Shown piece by piece: positions 10,283 through 23,868 of a DNA stretch of 46,816 nucleotides. The translations under genes were made by a program, and so were the position numbers. Each line of letters begins with the position of its first letter. The first letter of the stretch is position 1. A model generated the notes under the pieces. It saw only the letters and a program-made list of their open reading frames with translations, ran no database searches and was not told the DNA's origin. The stretch is from Nonomuraea lactucae (GTDB lineage Bacteria; Actinomycetota; Actinomycetes; Streptosporangiales; Streptosporangiaceae), in contig NZ_QNFZ01000168.1 in assembly GCF_003313395.1 (NCBI RefSeq), positions 1-46,816 of the forward strand, written 5' to 3'.

Positions 10283-12397
10283 TCACTCTTCGTCCTCGAG
10301 CGCGTAGGCGACGACCCGGGACACCCCCAGCCTCGTCCCGTCCCGGTAGGCGGCCGTGTACGCCTTGGCGCCCAGGGCGCGGCGGGCCCGCTCGACGCAC
10401 TCCTCGTGCGAGCGGGCCTGGATGCGCAGCCGCGACGGCGAGGTGCCGAAGGTCAGCCAGAGATGGTGGGCGATGCCCAGCAGCCGGGCGGCCCGCTCGT
10501 GCCGCCCGCGCGCCCCGGCGGTCCAGGCCATGACCTCCAGGCACTGGAGAAGGCCCCACCTGTCGTCCACGGCGCCGTAGTAGGCGGCCACCTCCCGCAT
10601 CTTGGCCTCGGCCTGACGCCACTCGCCCTGCTCCCAGCGGGCCATGCCGACCGCGTACAGGGCGTACGCGCGGTAGAGCGCCGCGTCGTGCGCCTCGCAG
10701 ATCCGCACGAGCTCCTCGCCGTACGCGGCGGCGCGGGCCGGGCGCAGGGCGGACGCGAACAGCGCGGAGAAATACAGCGTGAGCCCCACGGCGTGGACGT
10801 CGCCGGTCGCGCGCTGCCGGGCGAGGGCCTCCTCCATCAGCGCCAGCCCGCCCTCGGCGTCGCCCGCGGTCAGCGCGCCGACGCCGGACATCTGGATGGC
10901 GGAGGCGAGCGTCGGCTCGTCACCCAGCCGCAGCGCCAGCGCCAGGCACTCGTCGATGCTGGGCCGGGCCACCGGATCGCCCTGGTAGAGGGCGAGCAGC
11001 CCGTTTGCCCACAGGCCCATCACCCTGGCGACGCTCGGTCCGTCCACCAGCGCGAGGCCGCGTCTCAGCCAGTGCCGGCCCTCGCTGAGAGCGCCGCCGA
11101 CGAGCCAGTCACCCCAGAGCGCGGACGCGATTTCCAGCCCGATGGGCGCGTCGCCGGAATCGTCGAAGCAGAGGTCGAGGGCGACGCGGACGTTGGCCAT
11201 CTCGCGGTTCAGCCTCAGGTGGCTGTCGACCTGGTCGGGGGCTATCCGGTCCACGCGCAGCCGCCCGATCAGCCGGTTGTAGTGGTCGATGTAGCGCCGG
11301 CGCAGCCCATGCTCGTGCTCGGCGGGCAGCCGTTCGCGGCCGTACGCGCGGATGGTCTCCAGCATGCTGTAGCGGATGCCCGTTCCGTTGGGCTCCGGCC
11401 GGCTCAGGATGGACTTGTCCACCAGTCCGGCCATCAGGTCCAGGACGTCCTCGCGCGCGAGGCCCTGTCCGGGGCAGACGGCCTCGGCGGTCTCCAGGTC
11501 GGCGCCCCCCGCGAACATCGACAGCCGCTCCCACAGCCGTCGCTCGCCGGGCGAGCACAGCCCGTAGCTCCAGTCCATGGTGGCTCGGAGCGTCTGGTGG
11601 CGCGGCAGCGTGCCGGGGCCGACCTCGGCCGGCCGTTCCAGGCATTCGTCGAGCTCGTTCACCAGGTCTTCCACCGGTGTCGTGCGCAGCCGCACCGCCG
11701 CGAGCTCGATGGCCAGCGGGATCCCGTCCAGGCGCTGTGCCAGCCGGGCGACCGCGGGGGCGTTGTCGCCGTCGATGAGGAAGCCGGGCCGGATGGTCGC
11801 CGCCCGCGCCTCGAAGAGCCGCACGGCGTCGGACCGGGCGATGTCCCGGGTGCTGTCCCCCGGCGCCGGGAACCGCAGCGACGGCACGGCCAGCACCTGC
11901 TCGCCGTACACCCCGAGCGACTGGCGGCTGGTGGCCAGGATCCGCAGCCACGTGGTGCCGCGCAGAAGCTGGTGCACCAGGTCCGCGCAGGCGTCGAGCA
12001 GGTGCTCGCAGTTGTCCAGCACCAGCAGCATCCGTTTGTCGGTCAGATGCTCCACCACCACGGCCACGGGGTCCGGTCCCGTTTCGCGGACCCCCAGCGC
12101 GGCCGCCACGGCCGGCACCAGCAGCGCCTCGTCCTCGATCATGGCCAGCTCCACCAGCCGGACCCCGTCCCGGTACTTCGGTCGTACGAGCTCGCTGACG
12201 TGCAGCGCCAGCCGTGTCTTGCCGACCCCGCCCGCGCCGGTCAGGGTCAGCAGGCGGGTCTTGGGCAGGGCCCGCCTGACCTCGGAGATCTCGTGCCTGC
12301 GTCCGATGAAGCGGGAGGTGAAGGCGGGTGAAAGGTCCGCCACCTGCCGTGCGGCGGGCAGTAGGTTCTGGAGCCTGTCCTTCACGGCCATGCTCAT
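10283..12397 (-). CDS. STAND ATPase regulator lacking a DNA-binding domain
   Basis: The protein is 704 residues from ATG 12397 (second ATG at 12391). Walker A GAGGVGKTR lies at 54-62, LLVLDNCEHLL (Walker B) and ILATSRQ follow, then RLDGIPLAIELAA: the NB-ARC/AfsR-type NTPase layout. Residues about 400-680 are TPR-like helical repeats. Unlike its upstream paralog it ends (VAYALEDEE) without a LuxR helix-turn-helix. Its ATG overlaps the upstream gene's TGA (ATGA, 12394-12397), so translation is coupled. It may be a co-sensor or modulator of its partner. It converges on the UvrA-like gene. Confidence 0.88.
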   Translation of the reverse strand: MSMAVKDRLQNLLPAARQVADLSPAFTSRFIGRRHEISEVRRALPKTRLLTLTGAGGVGKTRLALHVSELVRPKYRDGVRLVELAMIEDEALLVPAVAAALGVRETGPDPVAVVVEHLTDKRMLLVLDNCEHLLDACADLVHQLLRGTTWLRILATSRQSLGVYGEQVLAVPSLRFPAPGDSTRDIARSDAVRLFEARAATIRPGFLIDGDNAPAVARLAQRLDGIPLAIELAAVRLRTTPVEDLVNELDECLERPAEVGPGTLPRHQTLRATMDWSYGLCSPGERRLWERLSMFAGGADLETAEAVCPGQGLAREDVLDLMAGLVDKSILSRPEPNGTGIRYSMLETIRAYGRERLPAEHEHGLRRRYIDHYNRLIGRLRVDRIAPDQVDSHLRLNREMANVRVALDLCFDDSGDAPIGLEIASALWGDWLVGGALSEGRHWLRRGLALVDGPSVARVMGLWANGLLALYQGDPVARPSIDECLALALRLGDEPTLASAIQMSGVGALTAGDAEGGLALMEEALARQRATGDVHAVGLTLYFSALFASALRPARAAAYGEELVRICEAHDAALYRAYALYAVGMARWEQGEWRQAEAKMREVAAYYGAVDDRWGLLQCLEVMAWTAGARGRHERAARLLGIAHHLWLTFGTSPSRLRIQARSHEECVERARRALGAKAYTAAYRDGTRLGVSRVVAYALEDEE

Positions 12398-14778
12398 TCC
12401 CCGCCCGGGGGGCCCTCGCCGGACCGCCGCGCCTGCTCGGCGACCCAGGCGGCGATCTGTGCCCTGGAGTTGAAGCCGAGCTTCCGGAGGATGTGCTCGG
12501 TGTGGCCTTCGGCGGTGCGCTGAGCGATCACCAGCACCGCCGCGATCTCCCTGCTGCTCATCCCCCGGGCGATGAGCCGGGCGATCTCCGCCTCCCGCGG
12601 GGTGAGGGTCTGGTCGCCGTCCGCGGCCCCGGACCGGCGGGAGGCGCCGGACCGGCCGCCCGAGGACGTGTCCTCCATGAGGGCGTAGGCGAGCGCGTCG
12701 TCGCGGGAGAGCCTGGTCCCGCGCTTGACGGCCGCCCGGAAGCCCGCCTCGCCCAGCGTCCGGCGCGTACGGGTCTCACACTCCTCGTGGTAGCGCAGGA
12801 GATGGCCGTAACCCAGCAGCGGCACGCCGATCGCCTCCCAGACGTTGTGGAGGACGCCCAGCAGTTCGGCCGCCCGCGCGAACTGCCCGTCGGAGGCGGC
12901 GGCCCAGGCCAGCACCTCAAGGCTGACCCCGACCCCGACCGAGTCGTCCAGCGCGTTGAACACCCGCAGGCTCTCCTGCTCCATCGCGGTCGCGCGCCGC
13001 AGATCGCCCTGCCGCCAGTGCTCGATGCCGAGCGCCGTCATCGTGTACGCCCGGTGCCAGGTCTCGCCGTGGGCATCGCAGACGGCGAGGCTCTCCTCGG
13101 CGGCGGCCACGGCGCGCCCGTGGTCGCCGAGGAAGGAGTGCGCGAGGGAGAGCCGGGTGAGCGCCTGCACCTCGCCGGCGGGGTCTCCGGCGGCGCGGTG
13201 GCGGGCCACGGCGTCCTCGAAGCAGCCGATCGCCTTCGCGGTGTCCCCGTCGTGCATGGCCACCATGCCGGAGTAGAGCGCGACGTAGCCGAGGACCGGT
13301 TCCAGCCCGTACCGCTCGGCGAGCATCCTGCTGTCTTCGAGCAGCCTGGTGGCCGAGGCCCGGTCGCCCTGGATGATGGCGAGCCAGCCGCAGGCCCACA
13401 TGGCCCGCGCTCTGACCTCCGACCCGCCCGCGGTGTCGGCGAGCCCCTGTTCGAGCCAGTCGCGCCCCTCACCCAGGTGGCAGCTCGTGATCCAGTGGTA
13501 GAGCAGGTCGCTCGCCATGTCGATGCAGAGCCCGGCGTGCTCGGCGTGGCAGTACTCCAGTGCGGTGCGCAGGTTCGGGTGCTCGGCCCGCAGCCGGTTG
13601 AGCAGCTTGACCTGTGCCGGGCCGAACAGCTGCGCCATCGCGTCGTGCGACAACCGCCGGTAGTACTCGCGGTACCAGCGTTTCACCTCCTGCTCGCGGC
13701 CGGACGCGACCAGCCGCTCCCGCCCGTACTGCCGGATCGTGTCGAGCAGCCGGTAGCGCACTCCGGTCGGATGCTCCTCCCTGATCAGGACCGACTTCTC
13801 CACCAGGCCGATCACCAGGTCGATGATCTCGTCGCGCGCGATGCCGTCGCCGGCGCAGACCGCCTCGGCGGCCTCCAGGTCCAGGCTGCCGGTGAACACC
13901 GAGATGCGCGCCCATAGCAGGCGCTCCTGCTCGGTGCACAGGTCGTGACTCCAGTCGAGCAGGGCGCGGAGCGTCTGGTGGCGGGATCTGGTGACGTGCG
14001 GTCCCCCCGTGAGCAGTTGGAAGCGGTCGTCCAGGCGGTCGAGCAGCTGCTCGGCGGAGAGCGCGCGCAGCCGCACGGCGGCGAGCTCGATGGCGAGCGG
14101 CAGGCCGTCCAGGCGGCGGCAGATCCGCTCGATGACGTCCCGGTTGTCGTCGGTGACGGTGAAATCGGGCACGACGGCCTGGGCTCTCTCGGCGAAGAGC
14201 TTGATCGCGTCGGACGTCGCGGACGAGGCGCCGTGCTGGCCGCCGTGCTGGACCTCGTCGTCCGGCAGCGGCAGCGTCGGCACGGTGAACGCCTGCTCGC
14301 TGGCGAGGCCCAGCGGCTGCCGGCTGGTGGCCAGGATGCGCAGCTCGGGGGCGGAGCGCAGCAGCCGCTGGGCCACCACGGCCGCCTCGTTGAGTAGGTG
14401 CTCGCAGTTGTCCAGCACGACCAGCATCCGCCGGCCGCGCAGGTACTCGGTGAGCACCTGGATGCCGGCCTGGGCGGAGTGGTCCTGGATCTTCAGCGCG
14501 GCGACCATGGTCTGGGGGATCATGCCGGAATTGTCGAGTTCGGCGAGTTCGACCAGCCACACGCCGTCGGGGAAGGCCCGTCGCAGGCCGGTGGCGACCC
14601 GCAGGGCCAGCCGGGTCTTGCCGACACCACCGGGCCCCATCAGGGTCACCATGCGCGAATCGCCCATGAGGCGCTTGATTGTGGCCACTTCGTGCTGACG
14701 TCCGATGAAACTGGTCACCTCGGCGGGCAGCCCTTCGGCCGGCCGTTGCTTCGAGGTGGTCGATGTGCCATTGGTCAT
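12394..14778 (-). CDS. LuxR-family STAND transcriptional regulator
   Basis: The 794-residue protein starts at ATG 14778. Walker A GPGGVGKTR lies at 48-56, followed by MLVVLDNCEHLL, ILATSRQPLG and RLDGLPLAIELAA, then TPR-like repeats. Residues 725-785 are a LuxR-type HTH (LTPREAEIARLIARGMSSRE and RKLGFNSRAQIAAWV). ATPase and TPR layout are the same as in the downstream gene, so the two are tandem paralogs. This class couples ligand or protein sensing to transcription. Regulatory targets are not evident; the neighbouring acyl-CoA synthetase/CCR gene is on the same strand upstream but about 250 bases away. Confidence 0.9.
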   Translation of the reverse strand: MTNGTSTTSKQRPAEGLPAEVTSFIGRQHEVATIKRLMGDSRMVTLMGPGGVGKTRLALRVATGLRRAFPDGVWLVELAELDNSGMIPQTMVAALKIQDHSAQAGIQVLTEYLRGRRMLVVLDNCEHLLNEAAVVAQRLLRSAPELRILATSRQPLGLASEQAFTVPTLPLPDDEVQHGGQHGASSATSDAIKLFAERAQAVVPDFTVTDDNRDVIERICRRLDGLPLAIELAAVRLRALSAEQLLDRLDDRFQLLTGGPHVTRSRHQTLRALLDWSHDLCTEQERLLWARISVFTGSLDLEAAEAVCAGDGIARDEIIDLVIGLVEKSVLIREEHPTGVRYRLLDTIRQYGRERLVASGREQEVKRWYREYYRRLSHDAMAQLFGPAQVKLLNRLRAEHPNLRTALEYCHAEHAGLCIDMASDLLYHWITSCHLGEGRDWLEQGLADTAGGSEVRARAMWACGWLAIIQGDRASATRLLEDSRMLAERYGLEPVLGYVALYSGMVAMHDGDTAKAIGCFEDAVARHRAAGDPAGEVQALTRLSLAHSFLGDHGRAVAAAEESLAVCDAHGETWHRAYTMTALGIEHWRQGDLRRATAMEQESLRVFNALDDSVGVGVSLEVLAWAAASDGQFARAAELLGVLHNVWEAIGVPLLGYGHLLRYHEECETRTRRTLGEAGFRAAVKRGTRLSRDDALAYALMEDTSSGGRSGASRRSGAADGDQTLTPREAEIARLIARGMSSREIAAVLVIAQRTAEGHTEHILRKLGFNSRAQIAAWVAEQARRSGEGPPGGE

Positions 14779-14793
14779 CGATGCCTCGCATCG
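14779..14793 (-). promoter_or_regulatory. Hairpin abutting the LuxR-STAND start codon
   Basis: CGATGC and GCATCG form a perfect 6-bp stem around a 3-base loop directly next to ATG 14778. The only Shine-Dalgarno-like bases (GAGG on the minus strand) are inside this hairpin, so it could limit translation. Confidence 0.35.
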
Positions 14794-14839
14794 GCTCCGG
14801 CCAGTGGGTCACTATGCGCGGAGAAGAGCCGATGACACC

Positions 14840-14867
14840 AAGATATGCCCCGTGCCATCACCGCCAA
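14840..14867 (-). promoter_or_regulatory. Candidate promoter for the LuxR-STAND operon
   Basis: On the minus strand TTGGCG (14867-14862) and TATCTT (14845-14840) are separated by 16 bases, upstream of ATG 14778. The match to a sigma-70 type promoter is moderate. I see no gene in the remaining 14779-15031 stretch. Confidence 0.3.
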
Positions 14868-15031
14868 GTTGCAGGGGCCGCCGCATATGCGCTGGTCATC
14901 GCGTGTTTTCGAAGACCGGCGCACCGGCCCGGGCGCGAATTTCGGGCAATTTTGGCGCGGGGAGTGCGGGAAGGGTTGAACGCTTGACGGAGCCCGTGCC
15001 CGTACGTGGACTGTTCTTTGTCGTCGCCGGT

Positions 15032-18000
15032 TCAGCCCTGGGCTCCGTTCGCCGCTCCGACCAGGGCGACCACGTTGCCGAACACGTCCTCCCCCCGCGC
15101 CATCGCGGCGTGGGCCTCGGGCAGTTCGTGGAAGGCGATGGTCCTGCCGAGGCAGGGATCGATGGTTCCGGCACGGACAAGGTCGTGGTAGGCGCGCGCC
15201 TGGTCGTCGTTGGTCCCGTGGGAACCCTGGAATCGCTTCTGCCTGGTCCAGTGGTAACGCAGGTCGACCACCGCGTCGTAGCCGGTCGTCCCGGCGCAGA
15301 TCACCACCATGCCGCCGGGCCGGCACAGGTAGATACTGGTCGGCACCGTCGCCTCGCCCGGGTGTTCCAGGACGATCGCCGGGTCCCGCCGTTCGCCCGC
15401 GATCTCCCACAGCCGCTTGCCGAAGGCGCGGGCACCCGCCGTCCAACGGGCCTGGCCGTCCGCGTCATCGCTGCGCGGTGGCACGCCCCAGTGGTCGAAC
15501 TCACGCCGGTTGACATAACCCACCGCGCCGTACTTCATCGCGTACTCGCCACGGCGGTCGTCGGAGACCACCGCGATGGCCCTGGCGCCGGCGGCGGCGG
15601 CAAGCTGGGTGGCCTGTGTGCCGAGTCCCCCCGAACCACCCCAGACGAGGACGATGTCATCCGGCTGGACCGTGTTCCCCTCCCAGCCGTGCAGCATCCG
15701 GTAGGCAGTCGTGCCGACCAGGGTGGGCGCCGCGGACTCCGCCCAGCTCAGTTGCTCGGCCTTCGGCAGGATCTGGTGGGACTGGACCCGGCAGAACTGG
15801 GCGAACGACCCGAAATTGGTGTCGTACCCCCAGATCCGGGCGGAGGGCGCGAGCATGGGGTCCTTGCCGGCCGCTGTCCAGGGGTCGTCGGCGTCCCAGT
15901 AGCCGGGGTGGATCACGACGTGGGCGCCGACCTCGACGCCACGTACAGCCGAGCCGACGGCATAGACGATCCCGGAGGCGTCGCTGCCCCCGATGTGGAA
16001 GTCGTACGACTCGCCGCGCCTGCGCCGCAGGGCGATCACGTCGACCGGGTAGCCTCGCGCGGCCCAGACATTGTTGTAGTTCACGCCGGCGGCCATGACG
16101 GCGACGAGCACCTCGTCGGGGCCGATCGGCGGCACGTCCACCTCCTCCACCTGGAATGCCTGAGCCGGGTCGCCGAAGCGGTCCTGCCGCACGACCTGCG
16201 CGTACATGCGCTCGGGTACGACGCCCAGCGGCGGCAGCGAGCCGATGGGAACGGTGCGCGAGCTGTTGCTGACCGTTTTCCGGCTTCCGTGCACGGCTGG
16301 CGGCATGACATTCCTCCTTGTGAGGGGACGAGCGGCGGTGGTTTCTCCGGGCGCCCCGAAAGGAGGGCTCACCCGGGCGAGGGCGCCGGTGATCTCGTCG
16401 AGAGCGGACGGGTCCTCGACGGTCGCCGGCGTGACGTACTGCTCTCCGGCGGCGATGGCCCGCATGGTCGCGCGCAGGATCTTGCCCGAGCGGGTCTTGG
16501 GCAGGCGGTCGACCACCGCCACGTGTTTCAGGCTCGCGATGGGGCCGATCTGCTCGCGCAGCAGCCTGATGACGTCCTTCGCCAGATCCTGCTCGGTGGC
16601 GCGAATGTCCGCGACCGTGACGACGAACGCGGCGGGAAGGTGCCCCTTGAGCGGGTCCGGGACCGCGATGACAGCGCATTCGGCGATGTCGGGGTGTGTG
16701 GTGATGACCTGTTCCATGGCGCCGGTGGACAGGCGGTGCCCGGCGACGTTGATGACGTCGTCCGTGCGGCCCATGACGAAGAGGTAGCCGTCCTCGTCGA
16801 TGTACCCGCCGTCTCCGGTCCAGTAGTAGCCGGGAAATGTCGTCAGGTAGGACTTGACGAACCGGTCGTCGTCCCCGTGAAGCGTCGTGAGGCCGCCCGG
16901 GGGCAGGGGCAGCTTCACGACGATCGCCCCCTGCTCACCGGGGCCGGCGGGTGTGCCGTCGCCGCGCAGGACGCTGACATCGAATCCCGGCATGGGTCTG
17001 GTCACCGACCCTTCCTTGGGCGGATGCCGGTCGAGACCGATCGGGTTGGCCGCGATGGGCCATCCGGTCTCGGTCTGCCACCAGTTGTCGACGACGGGTT
17101 TGCCCACGCGTTCGCGGATCCATCGATAGGTGTCGGGATCCAGCCGCTCCCCGGCCATGAAGATCGTCCTCAGCTGGGGAAGGTCCACCAGCCGCGATGC
17201 CCCGGGATCGGCCTGGCGGATGGCCCGCAGCGCTGTGGGCGCGGTGAACAGGGCCGCGACTCCGTGCTCACGCGCCACACGCCAGAACGTCCCCGCGTCC
17301 GGGGTGCCCACGGGCTTGCCTTCGTACAGGACGGTGGCCGCCCCGGCGATCAGCGGTCCGTAGACGATGTAGGAGTGGCCCACGACCCACCCGACGTCGG
17401 ACGCCGCCCAGAAGACCTCACCGGCGCGGATGTCGAAGATGTTCGACATGCTCCAGCGCAGCGCCACGGCGTGGCCGCCGTTGTCACGCACCACCCCTTT
17501 GGGCCGTCCGGTCGTACCGGAGGTGTAGAGGATGTACAGCGGATCGGTGGCCTCCACCGGCACGCACTCCACGGGATCGGCGTGCGGCACGACGGCGTCC
17601 CAGTCGATGTCACGTGGCGCCCTCAGCTGGGCCGTCGCCTGGCTCCGCTGGAGCACCAGGCAGTGCCGCGGCTGGTGCTCGGCACGGTCCAGCGCCTGTT
17701 CGAGGAGGGGGTGGTACTCCACCACGCGGGAGGGCTCAAGTCCGCATGAGGCGGTGACGACGACACGGGGCCGGGCGTCGTCGATGCGTGCCGCCAGCTC
17801 GGGCGGTGCGAATCCGCCGAAGACGACGGCGTGGACGGCGCCGATCCGGGCGCAGGCCAGCATGGCGAACACGGCCTCGGGGACCATCGGCATGTAGATC
17901 ACGACGCGGTCGCCACGGCGGACGCCGAGGCGGCGCAGGGCGCCTGCCACACGTGCGACCTCGTCGCGCAGTCGCAGGTAGCTGAAGCCGGCTCGCTCCC

Positions 18001-18268
18001 CCGTCATCTCGCTGTGGTAGATCAGAGCCGTGTCCTGGCCCCGGCCGACGCGCACATGCCGGTCGACGGCGTTGTAGCAGGTGTTCAGCCGCCCGCCGGG
18101 GAACCAGCGGCCATGGGGCGCGCCGTCACGGGCGTCCAGGGCACGGGTCGGGCGGCGCTCCCAGTCGATGTCCTCGGCAGCGCGCAGCCAGAAAGCGTCA
18201 GGCTCGGTGATGCTGGCCGAATGAGCGGTCGCGAGGGGGCGGTGGTGGTCGGTCCGGATGGTCGTCAT
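15032..18268 (-). CDS. Acyl-CoA synthetase (PrpE-like) fused to crotonyl-CoA carboxylase/reductase
   Basis: One uninterrupted 1078-residue frame from ATG 18268 (SD GAGGAAAGAG). Residues 1-630 are a propionyl-/acetyl-CoA synthetase: YTSGTTGRPKG at 248-258, NWWQTETGW at 395-403, and the acetylatable catalytic Lys596 in KTRSGKILR. Residues 655-1078 (424 aa) are an MDR reductase of the CCR type: NYNNVWAARG, HIGGSDASGIV, VWGGSGGLGTQATQLAAAAG, EHPGEATVP, CAGTTGYD and QKRFQGSH. Counting from Met655, Asn79 and His363 align with the CO2-pocket Asn81 and His365 reported for Kitasatospora CCR. CCRs convert crotonyl-CoA or acryloyl-CoA, CO2 and NADPH to ethylmalonyl-/methylmalonyl-CoA. Met655 has its own perfect SD, so the CCR may also be made separately. 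Last gene of the amide operon. Confidence 0.92.
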   Translation of the reverse strand: MTTIRTDHHRPLATAHSASITEPDAFWLRAAEDIDWERRPTRALDARDGAPHGRWFPGGRLNTCYNAVDRHVRVGRGQDTALIYHSEMTGERAGFSYLRLRDEVARVAGALRRLGVRRGDRVVIYMPMVPEAVFAMLACARIGAVHAVVFGGFAPPELAARIDDARPRVVVTASCGLEPSRVVEYHPLLEQALDRAEHQPRHCLVLQRSQATAQLRAPRDIDWDAVVPHADPVECVPVEATDPLYILYTSGTTGRPKGVVRDNGGHAVALRWSMSNIFDIRAGEVFWAASDVGWVVGHSYIVYGPLIAGAATVLYEGKPVGTPDAGTFWRVAREHGVAALFTAPTALRAIRQADPGASRLVDLPQLRTIFMAGERLDPDTYRWIRERVGKPVVDNWWQTETGWPIAANPIGLDRHPPKEGSVTRPMPGFDVSVLRGDGTPAGPGEQGAIVVKLPLPPGGLTTLHGDDDRFVKSYLTTFPGYYWTGDGGYIDEDGYLFVMGRTDDVINVAGHRLSTGAMEQVITTHPDIAECAVIAVPDPLKGHLPAAFVVTVADIRATEQDLAKDVIRLLREQIGPIASLKHVAVVDRLPKTRSGKILRATMRAIAAGEQYVTPATVEDPSALDEITGALARVSPPFGAPGETTAARPLTRRNVMPPAVHGSRKTVSNSSRTVPIGSLPPLGVVPERMYAQVVRQDRFGDPAQAFQVEEVDVPPIGPDEVLVAVMAAGVNYNNVWAARGYPVDVIALRRRRGESYDFHIGGSDASGIVYAVGSAVRGVEVGAHVVIHPGYWDADDPWTAAGKDPMLAPSARIWGYDTNFGSFAQFCRVQSHQILPKAEQLSWAESAAPTLVGTTAYRMLHGWEGNTVQPDDIVLVWGGSGGLGTQATQLAAAAGARAIAVVSDDRRGEYAMKYGAVGYVNRREFDHWGVPPRSDDADGQARWTAGARAFGKRLWEIAGERRDPAIVLEHPGEATVPTSIYLCRPGGMVVICAGTTGYDAVVDLRYHWTRQKRFQGSHGTNDDQARAYHDLVRAGTIDPCLGRTIAFHELPEAHAAMARGEDVFGNVVALVGAANGAQG
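16306..16319 (-). promoter_or_regulatory. Perfect internal Shine-Dalgarno before the CCR domain
   Basis: On the minus strand AAGGAGG (16319-16313) is followed by six bases and an in-frame ATG (16306-16304) at the start of the CCR domain (MPPAVHGS). This is the best ribosome binding site in the cluster and lies inside the fused frame. Confidence 0.8.
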
Positions 18269-18313
18269 CGGTCTCTTTCCTCGTTACGGAGATGCGTGCG
18301 ACCGCGAGGAAGG

Positions 18314-18342
18314 ACCGGCACCGGCGGCTCGCCGGTGCCGGT
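18314..18342 (-). terminator. Strong hairpin between amiE and the synthetase-CCR gene
   Basis: ACCGGCACCGGC (18314-18325) and GCCGGTGCCGGT (18331-18342) form a perfect 12-bp stem with loop GGCTC. It begins 10 bases after the amiE stop. No T-run follows. It may act as a partial terminator or as a 3' stability element that makes amiE mRNA more abundant than that of the downstream gene. Confidence 0.6.
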
Positions 18343-18351
18343 GCGCGCACG

Positions 18352-19389
18352 TCAAGAGGACGCGGAGTCCGCGGTCGGGAGCGAGCCCACGGGGCAGGCG
18401 GCCACACCGATGGTGTCGCGGGTGAACGCCTCGACGTTCTTCTGTGCCCGCTCCGGGTCGGTGACCCAGGTCCGGTAGAAGTCGAACGGGCATTCCGCGA
18501 CGCCCTTGTCGCCGTCGTTTCCGTCGTGGACGCCGGAGTATCCCCGGTGCAGCAGCTTGAACAGATGGTTGGTGGACTGGTCCTGGGCGCGGGCGTCGCG
18601 GATGGCGGACAAGGAGAGCTGGGCGTACTGGATGCCGTACTCCTCCGTGCCCGTCTCTCCGAGCGTCCGGCCGTCGAAGCCGATGATCGAGGAATGGCCG
18701 AAGTAGTAGTAGACGCCGTCGAAGCCTGCGGCGTTGGCGACGGCGACGTAGCTGTTGTTCGCCCACGCCATGGCCTTGGCCATGTTCACCGTCTGCTCCT
18801 GGGCGGGGTACATGTAGCCCTGGCAGCGGACGATCAGCTCGGCGCCCTTCATCGCGCAGTCACGCCAGATCTCGGGGTAGTTGCCGTCGTCGCAGATGAT
18901 CAGCGAGACCTTGAGGCCCTTGGGTCCCTCGGTGACGTGGGTGCCGTCGCCCGGGTACCAGCCCTCGATCGGGCACCAGGGCAGGATCTTGCGGTACTTC
19001 TGCACGATCTCGCCGCGGTCGTTCATGAGGATCAGGGTGTTGTACGGCGGTCTGTTCGGGTGGTCCTCGTGCCGCTCACCGGTGATCGAGAAGACCCCCC
19101 ACACGCCGGCCTCACGGCAGGCGGCGGCGAAGATCTCCGTCTCGGGCCCGGGGATGGTGGTCGCGGTCGCGTACATCTCCTCGCGGTCGTACATGATGCC
19201 GTGCAGGGAGTACTCCGGGAAGATCACCAGGTCCAGGCCGGGCAGGCCCTGCCTGATGCCGACGACCATGTCGGCGATCGTCCGCGCGTTCTCCATCACT
19301 TCGGGAGTGGTGTGGAGGCGGGGCATCTTGTAGTTGACCACCGCGACTCCGACGGTGTCAGGGCTGGACGTGATGTCACCGTGCCGCAT
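18352..19389 (-). CDS. amiE: AmiE: aliphatic amidase
   Basis: The protein is 345 residues from ATG 19389, preceded by GAAGGAG at good spacing. It is a nitrilase-superfamily aliphatic amidase. The catalytic residues fall at Glu59 (FPEY), Lys134 (KYRKILPW), Glu142 (PIEGW) and Cys166 (LIICDDG), the same numbers as in Pseudomonas AmiE, and the total length is nearly the same (346 in that enzyme). AmiE hydrolyses acetamide, propionamide and acrylamide to the acid plus ammonia in the cytoplasm. Formamidase (AmiF) is a close relative, but the match to AmiE is strong. It is preceded by an AmiS remnant and followed by the synthetase-CCR gene, suggesting that the released acid is activated by the neighbour. 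Confidence 0.96.
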
Positions 19390-19439
19390 GGCGGGCTCCT
19401 TCAGGTTGTGGTGATCTACGGTGGTGCGGGAGCTTGCGA

Positions 19440-19666
19440 TCAGGTGGTGAACGATGCCAGCCGGGCCTCCCTCTCCTGGGCAGGTGTCCTGAAACCGAGG
19501 AGAGCGGCCAGGGCGAGCAGGCCCACGCAGGTCGCGGCGATCGGGCCAGGCCGGCGTAGACGACGGCGGCCCCTGCCACGAACAGCGAGAACCAGCCCAC
19601 GCCCTCCGGTTCGAGCCGCACCAGGGTGGCCCCTGCGTAGAGCAGACCGACGTTGAGCATGGTCAT
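19440..19666 (-). pseudogene. Decayed amide/urea channel gene (AmiS/UreI family)
   Basis: A good ribosome binding site (GAAGGGGG) precedes ATG 19660/19666, and the first residues [13 protein letters not shown] match the AmiS/UreI N-terminus. The frame then jumps straight to [24 protein letters not shown], which in full-length members lies after three or so transmembrane helices, so about 70 residues are missing. A further frame change follows; the remaining hydrophobic piece ([13 protein letters not shown], other frame) is unassigned and may be the end of another permease. AmiS/UreI proteins are six-helix channels for short amides or urea and have about 170-200 residues. This remnant cannot form a channel. 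Confidence 0.75.
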
Positions 19667-19705
19667 CCCCCTTCGGCCCGCTCACGGGCCTGCCGCAACT
19701 ACAAC

Positions 19706-19726
19706 CATCTGGATTTATTCCAGATG
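19706..19726. promoter_or_regulatory. Palindromic operator (probable MarR site) upstream of amiS/amiE
   Basis: CATCTGGA (19706-19713) and TCCAGATG (19719-19726) are perfect 8-bp inverted arms with a 5-base centre, in an AT-rich island between the amiC-like gene and amiS. The 13-mer TTTCATCTGGAAT, read on the minus strand here (19729-19717), recurs on the plus strand at 20915-20927 in the marR intergenic region. Confidence 0.65.
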
Positions 19727-19796
19727 AAAGTAATGTGGCGCGGGAGTGTCCTCACTGTCAAGACGTGGGCGAGAAACTTTCAGTGGGCCCGGACGC

Positions 19797-20873
19797 TCAG
19801 AGACACGCGATCACGTCGAAGTCGTAGCCGTCGGCGACCGCGAGATGCACGCTCTGCGCGGCCTGCCGGCCGCGGAACTCCACGGTTCCCCGCGGTCCGT
19901 GGTAAGCGACACGGTCGACGACGCTGTCCAGCGCGTCCGGCTGGAGCGACCCGGCGCGGCGAGCGAGCTGGGCCAGCGTCTTCAGGCCCTCGTAGCAGGA
20001 CTCCGCGGCGACGTTCAGCGCCGGCGCCGTCGGACCGTGCAGGCCCACATACCTGCCGAGCAGGTCCATGGTGTCGGCGTTGGCAAGAGAGCGGAAGTAT
20101 GCGGCCGCGGTGAACAGGTTCCTCGTGGCCGCGAGCCCGCTGGCCATGAGCATGTTCTCCTCCAGCATGACGCTGAAGCGGACGAGCTTCTCGTGCAGCC
20201 CGCGCCTGGCGAACACCCTGTTGAACTCGGCCGCGTCCTGTCCCACCAGGAGCATCAGCACGCCGTCGCAGCCGGACTGCTCGATCAGCGGGATCGCCCG
20301 GGCCGTCCGGCCCGATCCGAGCCCGACGAAGCATTCGCCCACGATTCGCAGGCCGAGCTCCTCGGCGAAGCGCGCCACGGCGCGCGCGGTGCCGCGCGGC
20401 CACACATAGTCATTGCCGACGATGAACCACCGTTTGGCGCCGATGTTGTCCCGCAGCCACCCCAGCGCCGGCCGGATCTGCAGACGGGGGATCTCGCCGG
20501 TGCACAGTGGCCCGCTACCCGCCGCACCGCCCTCGTGCAAGGCCGTGTACACGTAGGGCACCCGGTCGGCGAGGACCGGCGCGACGGCGTCACGCACCGA
20601 GGAGATGTGCCACCCGCTCACCGCGTCCACCGCGCCCGCGGCCACCAGGCGACGCAGCACGGCCGCCACGGCCTGCGGCTCCGCCCCTCCGTCGACGATC
20701 TCGGCGACCACCTGCCTCCCGATGATGCCGTCCGCGCTGTTGAACTCGTGCAGCGCGAGCTCGGTGACGGCCTGACAGGAGGGCCCGAGGAGACCGGCCG
20801 GACCTTGCAACGGGATCACCATCGCGATGCGCAGGATACCCGCCTCTGCCCGTGCCGCCGCGTCTGTCGCCAT
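19797..20873 (-). CDS. AmiC-like amide-binding sensor / substrate-binding protein without signal peptide
   Basis: ATG 20873 is chosen, with CGGAG five bases upstream; the longer open frame runs antisense through marR. The 358-residue protein has the periplasmic-binding-protein type I fold of the branched-chain amino acid/amide family: IAMVIPLQGPAGLLGPSC, VVAEIVDGGAEPQAVAAVLRR and YVWPRGTARAVARFAEELG. The N-terminus (MATDAAARAEAGILRIAMVI) is not a signal peptide, so it is probably cytoplasmic, like Pseudomonas AmiC, which senses amides and holds the antiterminator AmiR. No AmiR (ANTAR) gene and no ABC transporter are adjacent; a divergent MarR gene is. It is probably the cluster's amide sensor, though binding-protein relatives also fit. 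Confidence 0.85.
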   Translation of the reverse strand: MATDAAARAEAGILRIAMVIPLQGPAGLLGPSCQAVTELALHEFNSADGIIGRQVVAEIVDGGAEPQAVAAVLRRLVAAGAVDAVSGWHISSVRDAVAPVLADRVPYVYTALHEGGAAGSGPLCTGEIPRLQIRPALGWLRDNIGAKRWFIVGNDYVWPRGTARAVARFAEELGLRIVGECFVGLGSGRTARAIPLIEQSGCDGVLMLLVGQDAAEFNRVFARRGLHEKLVRFSVMLEENMLMASGLAATRNLFTAAAYFRSLANADTMDLLGRYVGLHGPTAPALNVAAESCYEGLKTLAQLARRAGSLQPDALDSVVDRVAYHGPRGTVEFRGRQAAQSVHLAVADGYDFDVIACL

Positions 20874-20917
20874 GTCGGCTCCGGTGGGTTGCGGAACGAG
20901 AGTAGTTGATATATTTT

Positions 20918-20938
20918 CATCTGGAATTGTCTCAGAAG
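20918..20938. promoter_or_regulatory. Second CATCTGGA operator in the amiC-marR intergenic region
   Basis: CATCTGGA (20918-20925) is followed after five bases by CTCAGAAG (20931-20938), which matches TCCAGATG at five of eight positions, the same spacing as the site at 19706. It sits in an AT-rich stretch (TTGATATATTTT) between the divergent starts, placed to repress both genes. Confidence 0.55.
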
Positions 20939-20964
20939 GAAGTTTGACCCGCAAGGGGGCCCGG

Positions 20965-21417
20965 ATGGGAGACGCAGGCATCGACGGCTCGTCATCCGCG
21001 GGCGCCTTCATCGTGGCGGCCCGCAGGGCCACCTCACTCGTGGAGCGGGTGGTCAAACCCGAGGGGCTCACCGTCGACCAGTGGCTCACCCTGGAGGCGC
21101 TGGCCGATGCCGGGCCGCTGACCATGTCCGACCTGGCGTCCCGGACCATGGTGACCGGCCCGACGCTGACCCGGGTCATCGACCGGCTGGTGGCCACCGC
21201 TCTGGCCTACCGGGAGGTCGACGCCTACGACCGGCGGCGGGTTCTGGTCCATCTCAGTACGCGGGGCCGGTCGGCGTACCAGCGTGTCAGCGCCGGGCTC
21301 ACCGACATCGAGGACGACGTGCTGGCCCAGCTGGACGAAGTCACCACGACGCTCGTCCGGAGGGGCCGGATCGACCACGGTTCGTCGTCCGGCGACTCGA
21401 CCGTACACACCCGCTGA
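20965..21417 (+). CDS. MarR-family transcriptional regulator
   Basis: ATG 20965 with AAGGGGG upstream gives 150 residues; a TTG at 20944 with GAAGGA is an alternative. The winged helix is clear: GLTVDQWLTLEALADAGPLT, SDLASRTMVTGPTLTRVIDRL (recognition region) and VDAYDRRRVLVHLSTRGRSA (wing with conserved DRR). The gene is divergent from the amiC-like gene and shares with amiS/amiE an inverted-repeat motif, so it is the likely repressor of the amide cluster, released by an amide, acid or acyl-CoA ligand. The last 20 residues are polar and not part of the fold. Confidence 0.9.
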   Translation: MGDAGIDGSSSAGAFIVAARRATSLVERVVKPEGLTVDQWLTLEALADAGPLTMSDLASRTMVTGPTLTRVIDRLVATALAYREVDAYDRRRVLVHLSTRGRSAYQRVSAGLTDIEDDVLAQLDEVTTTLVRRGRIDHGSSSGDSTVHTR

Positions 21418-21559
21418 CTGACGCCGCCCGCCACGTCTCCCGCGCTCGGTAGAGCCGCAAGGCCGCCGCGCCCGCTCAGGAGACGTCCACCATCGGGGCC
21501 CTCGCATGCCGATCCACGGGCCACGACGATCATGCCGGCCTGCCCACCGAGGAGCACCA

Positions 21560-23011
21560 GTGAAGATTTCAGAGTACGTGACCTTTGACGCGGTCGGCCT
21601 CGCGGACCTGGTCGCCCGGGGTGAAGTGACACCCGCCGAGCTGGAGGCGGTGGCGCTGGCGGCGGCACAGGCGGTCAACGGCCAGATCAACGCCATCGTG
21701 GAAACATGGCCCGGCGAGGACGCCCCGGTCCCGGGCAGCACACCGCTGGCCGGAGTGCCCTTCCTGATCAAGGATCTCGGGGTGACCATGGCCGGCAAAC
21801 GCGTCGAACTGGGCAGCCGGCTCGCGGCCGGGAATGTCGCCCAGGCCGACTCGTCGCTGATGAGGCGCTTCCGTGCCGCCGGGCTCGTGACGTTCGGGCG
21901 CACCGCGACACCGGAGATGGCCTACAGCATCACCACCGAACCCGTCCTGTACGGAACGACCCGCAACCCCTGGGACCTGCGGCGCAGTGCGGGCGGCTCC
22001 AGCGGCGGCGCGGGTGCCGCCGTCGCCGCCGGAGTGGTCCCGATCGCCCACGCCACCGACGCCGCGGGCTCGATCCGGGTTCCCGCCGCCTACAACGGCC
22101 TGTTCGGGCTGAAGCCCACACGCGGTCGCGTCTCCATGGGGCCCGACCTGGACGAGATCTTCAACGGCCTGGCGGTGCAGGGCTGCCTGAGCCGAACGGT
22201 GCGGGACAGCGCGGCGGTGCTCGACCAGATCCGCGGCCCGGAACCGGGTGACCCCTACTTCGCCACCGAGCCCTCCCGGCCGTACCTGGAGGAGGTCACC
22301 CGCGACCCGGGCTCCCTGCGGATCGGCCTCGTCGTGCGGCCCTGGGGCGGACGACCCACGACCGCCCCCGTGGCCGACGCCGTGAAACGTGCGGCGCACC
22401 TGCTCGAATCCCTGGGCCATCGGGTGGAGGAGGCCGAGGTCGACCTCGGAGTCGGCTGGGAGGAGTTCGTCCTGGCCAACGCCCGCCTGTGGACGGCCAA
22501 CCTGACGGACTGGCTTGACGGCCTGGCCGCCGCCTTCGGCCGACCCCTGGACGACTCCACCCTCGAACCGGTGAACCTGACCAGTTACGCCTACGGGCAG
22601 CAGGTCAGCGGCACCCAGTTCGTCAGCGCGCTCGCGGTGCGCAACGCGGTCGCCCGGAGCCTGGCACGATGCTTCGGCGCCTACGACGTGCTGCTCACCC
22701 CGACCCTGCCCGAGCTTCCGGTGCCTCTCGGCACCTACGCGGAGGGCGTCGAGGCACTGGACGGCCTTGGCTGGCTGAACCGGCTGTTCGACCGCTCACC
22801 GTTCACCGCGGCGTTCAACGTGGCGGGCACGCCGGCCATGTCCGTGCCCCTGGCCTGGGACCACGAGACCGGACTCCCCATCGGGGTGCAGTTCGCCGCC
22901 GGTTACGGGCTCGAAGACCGCCTGTTCCGCCTGGCCGGACAGCTCGAACAGGCGAGTCCGTGGATCGGTCGCACCCCCGCGGTGTGGGCGGGCGACCACG
23001 AGACCGTGTGA
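21560..23011 (+). CDS. Amidase signature (AS) family amidase
   Basis: GTG 21560 with GAGGAG upstream gives 483 residues. The Ser-cisSer-Lys triad is present: Lys71 in FLIKDLG, Ser147/148 in [10 protein letters not shown], nucleophile Ser171 in [11 protein letters not shown]-terminal [10 protein letters not shown] and PIGVQFAA are also typical. AS amidases hydrolyse a wide range of amides and are unrelated to AmiE. The gene lies 142 bases after marR on the same strand, possibly co-transcribed with it, so it probably supplies carboxylic acids from larger amides to the same pathway. No CATCTGGA motif is visible directly upstream. Confidence 0.92.
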
Positions 23012-23028
23012 GACCCCCGCGGCTCACG

Positions 23029-23868
23029 TCAGGGGCCGAATGCGGCGGCGTTCTCCCGGACCCACTGCGCGAAGGTGCGGGCCGGCCTCCCGGTGACCTG
23101 CTCCACGGTGGGCAGCACGGAGTCCCCCGCGATCGGCGGGTCGGTCCGCATCTTCAGGAAGAACTCGACGTCCTCGCCGGAGTAGCCGGCCTCGCGCCAC
23201 TGGGCGACGATCTCGTCCTGGGTGAGCTCGACGTAGCGCACCTCGCGGCCGAGGACCTCGCCGATGGTGCGGACCTTCTCCGGCGGGGTCAGCGCCTCCG
23301 GACCGGTCAACCAGTATTCCCGGCCGGCGTGGCCGTCGCCGGTGAGCGCCGCCGCGGCCACCGCGGCGATGTCGGCCTCATGGATCATGGCGCTGCGGGC
23401 CTCCGGGAACGCCTCCCGGACGACCCCCTCGGTCCGTACGGACTCGGCCCACTCCAGGGCGTTGGACATGAACTCGACCGGCGCCAGATGGGTCCACTCC
23501 AGGCCGCCGGCCTCGACGGCGTGCTCAAGCGGGCTCTTGGCCACGTCGCCCTTGAGCACCGTCACCCTGCGCACCCCGGCCCGGCTCGCCAGGTCGACGA
23601 TCTCCTCGCCGTTGGTCAGCGGTGCGTAGTCCTCCCCGTCGAAGCTGATCAGGTGCGCGGCCGAGGCGCCGGTGAACGCGGCTGCGAGGCTGGAGGCGTC
23701 GGCCAGGTTCCCGGCGACCGCCTCGGCCCCGGCCGGGAGGTCGGCCCTGACCGGGTCGCGGGTGAGGGCGCGGACCCGGTGCCCGGCGGCGAGGAGCTGT
23801 TCGACCAGGGAGCGGCCGACGTTGCCGGTGGCGCCCGCGACAAGGATGATCTTGGAATCGTGTGTCAT
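23029..23868 (-). CDS. NmrA-like NAD(P)-binding oxidoreductase
   Basis: The protein is 279 residues from ATG 23868. The N-terminal Rossmann motif VAGATGNVGRSLVEQLLAAG (GxxGxxG) and the pattern GNLADASSLAAAFTGA define an atypical SDR of the NmrA/QOR2 group, which lacks the catalytic Tyr-Lys and often senses NADP(H) or reduces quinones. The C-terminal half (EVRYVELTQDEIVAQWREAG, then PARTFAQWVRENAAAF) is typical of the actinobacterial branch. The gene is divergent from the WYL regulator, which probably controls it. Confidence 0.88.
   Translation of the reverse strand: MTHDSKIILVAGATGNVGRSLVEQLLAAGHRVRALTRDPVRADLPAGAEAVAGNLADASSLAAAFTGASAAHLISFDGEDYAPLTNGEEIVDLASRAGVRRVTVLKGDVAKSPLEHAVEAGGLEWTHLAPVEFMSNALEWAESVRTEGVVREAFPEARSAMIHEADIAAVAAAALTGDGHAGREYWLTGPEALTPPEKVRTIGEVLGREVRYVELTQDEIVAQWREAGYSGEDVEFFLKMRTDPPIAGDSVLPTVEQVTGRPARTFAQWVRENAAAFGP

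Follow-up and report, generated by a model that had tools for sequence, protein, structure and literature searches.

A candidate amide-utilisation locus in Nonomuraea lactucae in which an aliphatic amidase is followed by a PrpE-like ligase and a CCR-family enzyme

A stretch of 46,816 nucleotides of Nonomuraea lactucae (contig NZ_QNFZ01000168.1; hereafter the window) was found to carry a MarR-linked locus in which an aliphatic amidase gene (amiE) is followed by genes for a PrpE-like acyl-CoA ligase and a homolog of crotonyl-CoA carboxylase/reductase (CCR). The order of transcription on the minus strand is truncated amiS, amiE, ligase and ccr, and the gene of a binding protein lies upstream on the same strand (Table 1). 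The locus consists of these genes in this order together with an operator-like repeat; the same combination occurs in one other locus and parts of it recur elsewhere. We read it as an amide-utilisation locus whose operon would convert an amide to the acid, the acid to its CoA ester and the ester to a product reduced by the CCR-family enzyme, with acrylamide as the favoured substrate. This reading is considered about as probable as its contrary. The weights given to it and to its rivals are not exclusive since a fusion of ligase and CCR could run the same route.

In the proposed scheme, short aliphatic amides would induce the operon and would be hydrolysed to acid and ammonia by AmiE and perhaps by the amidase-signature (AS) amidase. 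The acid would be converted to its CoA ester by the PrpE-like ligase and an alpha,beta-unsaturated enoyl-CoA would then be reduced by the CCR-family enzyme. For the favoured substrate, the sequence of reactions would be acrylamide to acrylate to acryloyl-CoA and from there to propionyl-CoA and/or, with CO2 added, methylmalonyl-CoA. Ligase and CCR would be made as two polypeptides from one transcript. The operon most likely serves acrylamide or propionamide. Methylmalonyl-CoA mutase is present in the host genome (a draft of 8.67 Mb in 1068 contigs), and either product, propionyl-CoA or methylmalonyl-CoA, could reach succinyl-CoA. Compared with a plasmid collection that has few relatives of the host, 1902 bases of the window match Nonomuraea gerenzanensis at 90.2% identity, ahead of Nocardia farcinica at 78.5%.

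Enzymes of the locus and the ligase-CCR junction

Profile scans with Pfam and NCBIfam, which covered eight proteins of positions 10283-23868, confirmed the AmiE, MarR and AS amidase genes of the initial annotation at their coordinates. AmiE scores 680.6 bits against the equivalog model for aliphatic amidase (NF009802, cut-off 427) and its residues 1-338 align with PDB 2uxy, labelled aliphatic amidase. The FPEYS, KYRKI and ICDDG blocks, which we take to be the positions of the catalytic Cys-Glu-Lys of AmiE, are kept in this alignment. The AmiS remnant listed in the initial annotation is present and weak, matching Pfam AmiS_UreI (PF02293) with an E-value of 3.3e-4 and 21.2 bits (cut-off 25) over profile positions 76-105 of 166 only, and aligning with M. 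arabiense AmiS at 54% identity over 46 columns (tblastn, E 3e-12); it is not a full-length AmiS/UreI channel gene. The AmiC-like sensor gene was likewise borne out as to family, as its product is of the AmiC/urea-binding type (Pfam PF13433/PF13458). This protein matches AmiC (PDB 1pea) with an E-value of 5e-12, is matched better by four other binding proteins and has no signal peptide evident by eye; it is a putative cytoplasmic amide sensor.

The ligase falls below the cut-offs of both propionate--CoA ligase equivalogs (745.4 of 955 bits for NF007815 and 717.7 of 827.4 bits for TIGR02316) and is therefore named PrpE-like. Its best solved relative is PDB 5gxd (830 bits), which we take to be D. 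shibae PrpE, and the best acetyl-CoA synthetase scores 472. D. shibae PrpE has been used for making acryloyl-CoA from acrylate (PMC5651017). The ligase is 59-60% identical to the ligases in three Rhodococcus plasmid CCR loci, 63% identical to the PrpE-like ligase directly 3' of the CCR gene in genome G378, and only 38-40% identical to three acetate--CoA ligases (Acs) near AmiE elsewhere. An Asn before the WWQTETG motif was considered as a mark of acrylate specificity and rejected, as it was also found in 2 of 30 ordinary PrpE relatives (L002, L010-L038).

The CCR homolog scores 501.3 bits against TIGR01751 (cut-off 378.55) and is the single CCR of the host genome over that cut-off; its best PDB matches are 9kva, AntE and 4gi2. 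The CCR family named in the initial annotation therefore stands, but the carboxylation that it attributed to the enzyme is put in doubt by the pocket. CO2 is bound by N81, F170, E171 and H365 in the K. setae CCR (PMC10966969). With positions placed by motif on our own reading, the pocket Asn and His are kept in the present CCR, Phe-Glu is replaced by Tyr-Asp, and Gly takes the place of the Phe after His. Among 84 aligned relatives (56-78% identical; L122 and L039 are one gene), Tyr was observed in all 84, while the next position holds Glu in 48, Asp in 31 and Asn in 5; the 36 relatives with Asp or Asn carry Gly after His and the 48 with Glu carry Phe. The nearest solved relative, 9kva, has Asn together with Gly after His and is the M. 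metallidurans enzyme (PMC12632816). Because the pocket Glu is Asp here (and Asn in some relatives), carboxylation is not to be assumed; it is possible, and plain reduction to propionyl-CoA appears as likely.

This type of CCR was found in nine of 394 genomes of the class, the host included (E up to 1e-170). In the CCR tree, the protein forms a lone branch and does not fall within the supported clade of 21 rows (100/95) to which the Rhodococcus enzymes belong, and its grouping with AmiE therefore probably arose more than once.

Ligase and CCR share a frame that is open over 1078 codons and they were initially described as a synthetase-CCR fusion, which we consider doubtful. A perfect AAGGAGG is located 6 nt before the ATG of the CCR gene. 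The 22-codon linker in front of it has a GC content by codon position of 0.64/0.73/0.64, against 0.72/0.51/0.89-0.90 in ligase and CCR, and a third-position GC content (GC3) as low as this was observed in only 7 of the 1056 22-codon windows of the frame, the lowest lying at the linker itself. Because of this Shine-Dalgarno sequence and the non-coding-like linker, we read ligase and CCR as two genes in a single operon that most likely lost the stop between them, either in the cell or through the assembly. Where the ligase would be expected to end, the +1 frame contains a TGA, so that a single indel, whether genuine or introduced by the assembly, would yield the open frame.

A true bifunctional protein of 1078 residues, which would channel acryloyl-CoA in the manner of propionyl-CoA synthase (PCS) without the hydratase domain, is quite improbable. 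The uninterrupted frame argues for it, but the start signals of the CCR, the linker composition and the out-of-frame TGA argue against it, and no match spanning both parts was seen among the matches listed in 297 other genomes of the family (E to 3.9e-182). Thirty of 31 ligase relatives (L002, L010-L038, L138) end at the linker start or at most 20 residues later, and L038 ends 40 residues later with a repeat tail. Since tails thus reach 20 (L012, L027) or even 40 residues, an extension of 22 residues would not be odd in a fusion, and tail length agrees with two genes without proving them. A bolder version, in which a natural fusion turns acrylamide-derived acrylate into methylmalonyl-CoA with channelled acryloyl-CoA as a CO2-fixing detoxification, and founds a CCR subfamily devoted to acryloyl-CoA (Tyr-Asp, GSHG pocket), is very unlikely.

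Table 1. Coordinates of the features of the amide locus in the window
Feature	Position	Strand	Basis or remark
CCR-like enoyl-CoA reductase/carboxylase	15032..16306	-	own ATG at 16306, 424 aa; TIGR01751 match
Ligase/CCR junction	16307..16372	-	no stop in frame; composition resembles non-coding DNA; Shine-Dalgarno sequence AAGGAGG at 16319-16313
PrpE-like AMP-forming short-chain acyl-CoA ligase	16373..18268	-	residues 1-632 of the 1078-codon frame
GC-rich hairpin between amiE and the ligase gene	18314..18342	-	possible attenuator, terminator or stabiliser
AmiE, aliphatic amidase	18352..19389	-	NCBIfam model and PDB 2uxy alignment
Truncated AmiS/UreI-type channel gene	19376..19666	-	PF02293 below cut-off; tblastn with M. 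arabiense AmiS
Palindrome CATCTGGATTTATTCCAGATG in the amiS/amiE promoter, putative operator for MarR	19706..19726	.	genome scan and amide-operon alignment
TTGACA, possible -35 element	19756..19761	-	TTGACAGTG common to the contig C975 copy and M. arabiense
AmiC-like binding protein, putative cytoplasmic amide sensor	19797..20873	-	Pfam and PDB homology
Degenerate palindrome copy (4 mismatches) in the gap between binding-protein gene and marR	20918..20938	.	pattern scan
MarR-family regulator	20965..21417	+	Pfam match
AS amidase	ORF 21506..23011	+	likely start GTG at 21560; PF01425 E 1e-89

Gene context in other genomes and the choice of substrate

The same gene set was found on plasmid unnamed2 of Rhodococcus koreensis, where two AmiE (81-82% identical), an AS amidase located between the two amiE genes (74%), AmiS, a CCR (71%) and a ligase (59%; about 6.6 kb from the nearer AmiE) lie within 17 kb. 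This plasmid also carries a quinone-oxidoreductase-like (QOR) gene and two crotonase-family genes. In six Rhodococcus plasmid loci, that of R. koreensis included (two of the six unannotated, with gene families named by scan for one locus), ccrA, QOR, ECH and HIBCH were present in all six, Fe-ADH and MMSDH in the five other than R. koreensis and a PrpE-like ligase in three, R. koreensis among them. The CCR of the window is 70-73% identical to the CCRs of Rhodococcus plasmids. Genes of the ccrA, QOR, ECH, Fe-ADH, MMSDH and HIBCH types are those that would be required for the breakdown of acryloyl-CoA or methacrylyl-CoA. The clusters would fit acryloyl-CoA breakdown via 3-hydroxypropionate and malonate semialdehyde, or methacrylyl-CoA breakdown. 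The link between CCR and amides proposed in the initial annotation accordingly gains one independent amidase locus, that of R. koreensis, and acryloyl-CoA-like clusters in the six plasmid loci.

Two further contexts of the CCR were noticed. On a plasmid of R. pyridinivorans YF3 (L160 9814-11596), genes for a nitrilase-like carbon-nitrogen hydrolase and a member of the phenylacetaldoxime dehydratase family lie directly upstream of ccrA, which hints at a nitrile-to-acyl-CoA cluster. Streptomyces CCRs of the same subfamily (L043, L046, L048, L049) stand behind genes for an aminotransferase, an ADP-forming acyl-CoA ligase and an aldehyde dehydrogenase, suggesting an amine-to-acyl-CoA route.

The HIBCH and MMSDH of the Rhodococcus clusters would suit methacrylyl-CoA breakdown as well, and crotonyl-CoA is the classic CCR substrate, so that a C4 amide, methacrylamide or crotonamide, might be the substrate in place of acrylamide. 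We consider this distinctly improbable because methacrylyl-CoA could be carboxylated at the alpha position only by forming a quaternary carbon, and crotonyl-CoA would not need HIBCH. In addition, acrylonitrile is used by Rhodococcus M8, an isolate from soil contaminated with this compound (PMC5805882). The CCR plasmid, however, comes from strain M8-35, which seems by its name to derive from M8, and no record named M8 was found among the 22 CCR plasmid records.

The neighbours of AmiE bear on a different alternative, in which only saturated amides are used: AmiE and the ligase would convert propionamide to propionyl-CoA, or acetamide to acetyl-CoA, to obtain carbon and nitrogen, and the CCR would belong to another pathway or be a passenger. 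An AMP-forming CoA ligase was found beside AmiE or one gene off in four of the ten other AmiE regions of at least 10 kb. In genome G136 the two genes are adjacent, and in M. arabiense, Arthrobacter U41 and Rhodococcus M8 (divergent) an acetate--CoA ligase stands beside AmiE or is separated from it by one AAA ATPase gene. The regions read of R. jostii RHA1, R. oxybenzonivorans, R. pyridinivorans P23, R. rhodochrous pNit and Roseateles have no CoA ligase near AmiE. As three of the four ligases are acetate--CoA ligases, these loci probably serve acetamide use. Together with the ligase of the window scoring best with propionate--CoA ligase models and the lack of a general co-occurrence of CCR and AmiE, they favour saturated amides. 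However, the CCR gene follows the ligase directly and has its own Shine-Dalgarno sequence, the ligase is PrpE-like and distant from the three Acs, and R. koreensis groups the same gene set. Use of saturated amides alone is therefore judged rather unlikely.

Several observations weigh against the acrylamide route as we propose it. The predominance of acetate--CoA ligases near AmiE is one, and a CoA ligase was found in none of the best 30 Mycobacteriaceae AmiE loci (with flanks of about 1.5 kb). The conversion of amide to acid to acyl-CoA, as put forward in the initial annotation, is favoured by homology and by the ligases of the four regions but is not matched in these 30 loci. Across 401 Mycobacteriaceae genomes, CCR was present in 4 and AmiE in 57, and both were found only in genome G642, on different contigs; a general co-occurrence of the two in this family is therefore unsupported. 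Neither AmiE nor a close PrpE-like ligase was observed beside the CCR in any of 80 named loci (the best 80 of 332), with flanks of at most 8 kb that are shorter at contig ends and with 54 of the 80 loci spanning at least 17 kb; one of them (L054) has an AMP ligase of 30% identity. Furthermore, the Pfam and NCBIfam scans revealed neither hydratase nor 3-hydroxypropionate genes at the locus, and a strong hairpin separates amiE from the ligase gene; the 92 nt at 18265-18356 fold with -43.4 kcal/mol (z -2.66), which 3 of 200 shuffled sequences equalled or bettered.

When neighbours were counted in 39 CCR loci, AMP-ligases turned up in 7 of them, and 14 had a gene from a cluster that includes an ADP-forming-ligase-like member. 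This count was set aside and not used as proof because several of these loci are close relatives and AMP-ligases are common.

Supply of extender units for polyketides, with the amide part incidental, is extremely unlikely. AntE, a near PDB match of the CCR, serves antimycin biosynthesis, but the CCR relatives with context read sit in catabolic-looking clusters. No polyketide synthase was recognised among the eight scanned proteins of 10283-23868 (the rest of the window and genome was not searched for one), leaving the extender-unit role suggested in the initial annotation unsupported.

Control elements, origin and neighbours of the amidase module

The palindrome CATCTGGATTTATTCCAGATG upstream of amiS was found to be the sole site in the genome at up to 3 mismatches. 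A copy with 4 mismatches lies between the binding-protein gene and marR; when the window was shuffled 200 times by mononucleotide, sites at up to 4 mismatches averaged 0.0 per strand. When up to 6 mismatches were allowed, four other loci had a single site each, located in the matching promoter: M. arabiense before amiS (5 mismatches), a decayed amiE copy on contig C975 (6), R. oxybenzonivorans in the gap from the binding-protein gene to marR (6) and R. koreensis in the stretch from amiS to the ccrA side (6). No such site was found in JS3073 or G136. R. jostii RHA1 has two sites with 6 mismatches, both outside amiS/amiE or binding-protein/marR promoters, and sites at this level therefore arise by chance too. 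The MarR protein shares 47-50% identity with its counterparts in the amiE modules of M. arabiense and two Rhodococcus plasmids, and we infer that it acts at the palindromes. A simple promoter scan found no promoter. As a separate observation, the R. koreensis site (L154 10160-10740) lies between the divergent amiS and ccrA sides, which hints at one regulator serving both the amidase and CCR genes there.

AmiE was found in only 2 of 298 genomes of the family, the host included (E up to 1e-120), and was therefore probably acquired. The amidase module itself is common in Mycobacteriaceae: in the best 30 loci mentioned above, a binding-protein gene accompanies AmiE in 28, AmiS in 23 and MarR in 8. 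A second, decayed amiE is present on contig C975 (L140 3114-3888) as four fragments 94-99% identical to amiE of the window, with internal stretches gone. This copy is preceded by a promoter-like stretch (78%) that contains a short tandem repeat and an operator-like site similar to that of the window. The amiS of the window also lacks internal stretches, a decay of the same kind, and these gaps are either real deletions or an assembly effect in the draft.

An AAA ATPase gene recurs near AmiE on actinomycete plasmids (L156, L199-L202). Large regulators of the ATPase type, several of which include TPR or LuxR domains, were observed near the CCR gene in the window (10283-14778), in R. jostii NBRC 16295 (L058 4054-6420) and in G378 (L138 8673-11483); that of the R. 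jostii NBRC 16295 locus is 40-43% identical.

Relation to known systems

The enzyme families of the locus are known and their combination appears unusual; the evidence partly supports an acrylate route that varies the PrpE-AcuI type by using a CCR homolog for the reduction. A paper on this gene combination was not found in the open-licence PMC literature, which is not to say that it is absent. If the reading is true, actinomycetes would have their own route of acrylate and acrylamide assimilation, with a CCR-family enzyme in the place that AcuI takes in marine bacteria, and one subfamily of CCRs would have a catabolic role. It would also bear on the bioremediation of acrylamide and acrylonitrile, on industrial acrylamide strains, which should spare their product, and on which natural carboxylases to choose for C3 enoyl-CoA.

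The locus resembles the amidase module of Rhodococcus and Mycobacteriaceae (binding protein, AmiS, AmiE and often MarR) in the gene order and operator-like repeat seen in M. arabiense. It differs in that AmiS is truncated, the PrpE-like ligase and CCR follow, and the AS amidase is located downstream of MarR. With the Rhodococcus plasmid clusters (ccrA-QOR-ECH-(FeADH-MMSDH)-HIBCH) it shares the CCR and, in three of the six, the ligase, whereas here the two genes are adjacent and no hydratase, hydrolase or dehydrogenases stand at the locus. The enzyme is like crotonyl-CoA carboxylase/reductase in exceeding the cut-off of the family model and in keeping the pocket Asn and His; unlike it, it has Asp for the pocket Glu, Gly for the Phe after His and Tyr for the pocket Phe.

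PCS likewise combines an acyl-CoA synthetase with an enoyl-CoA reductase for acryloyl-CoA. Several stretches of the ligase-CCR frame match PDB 6eqo, which is labelled acetyl-coenzyme A synthetase and is presumably PCS. The present pair has no hydratase domain in the Pfam scan and so lacks the three-domain make-up of PCS, and its status as one polypeptide is doubtful. In the PrpE-AcuI acrylate route of marine degraders of dimethylsulfoniopropionate (DMSP; PMC5651017), a PrpE-type ligase likewise forms acryloyl-CoA, which a reductase then converts to propionyl-CoA. The sole such reductase recognised here in the Pfam and NCBIfam scans is of the CCR family and not of the AcuI type; moreover, the acid would come from an amide and control would likely rest with MarR and the AmiC-like sensor.

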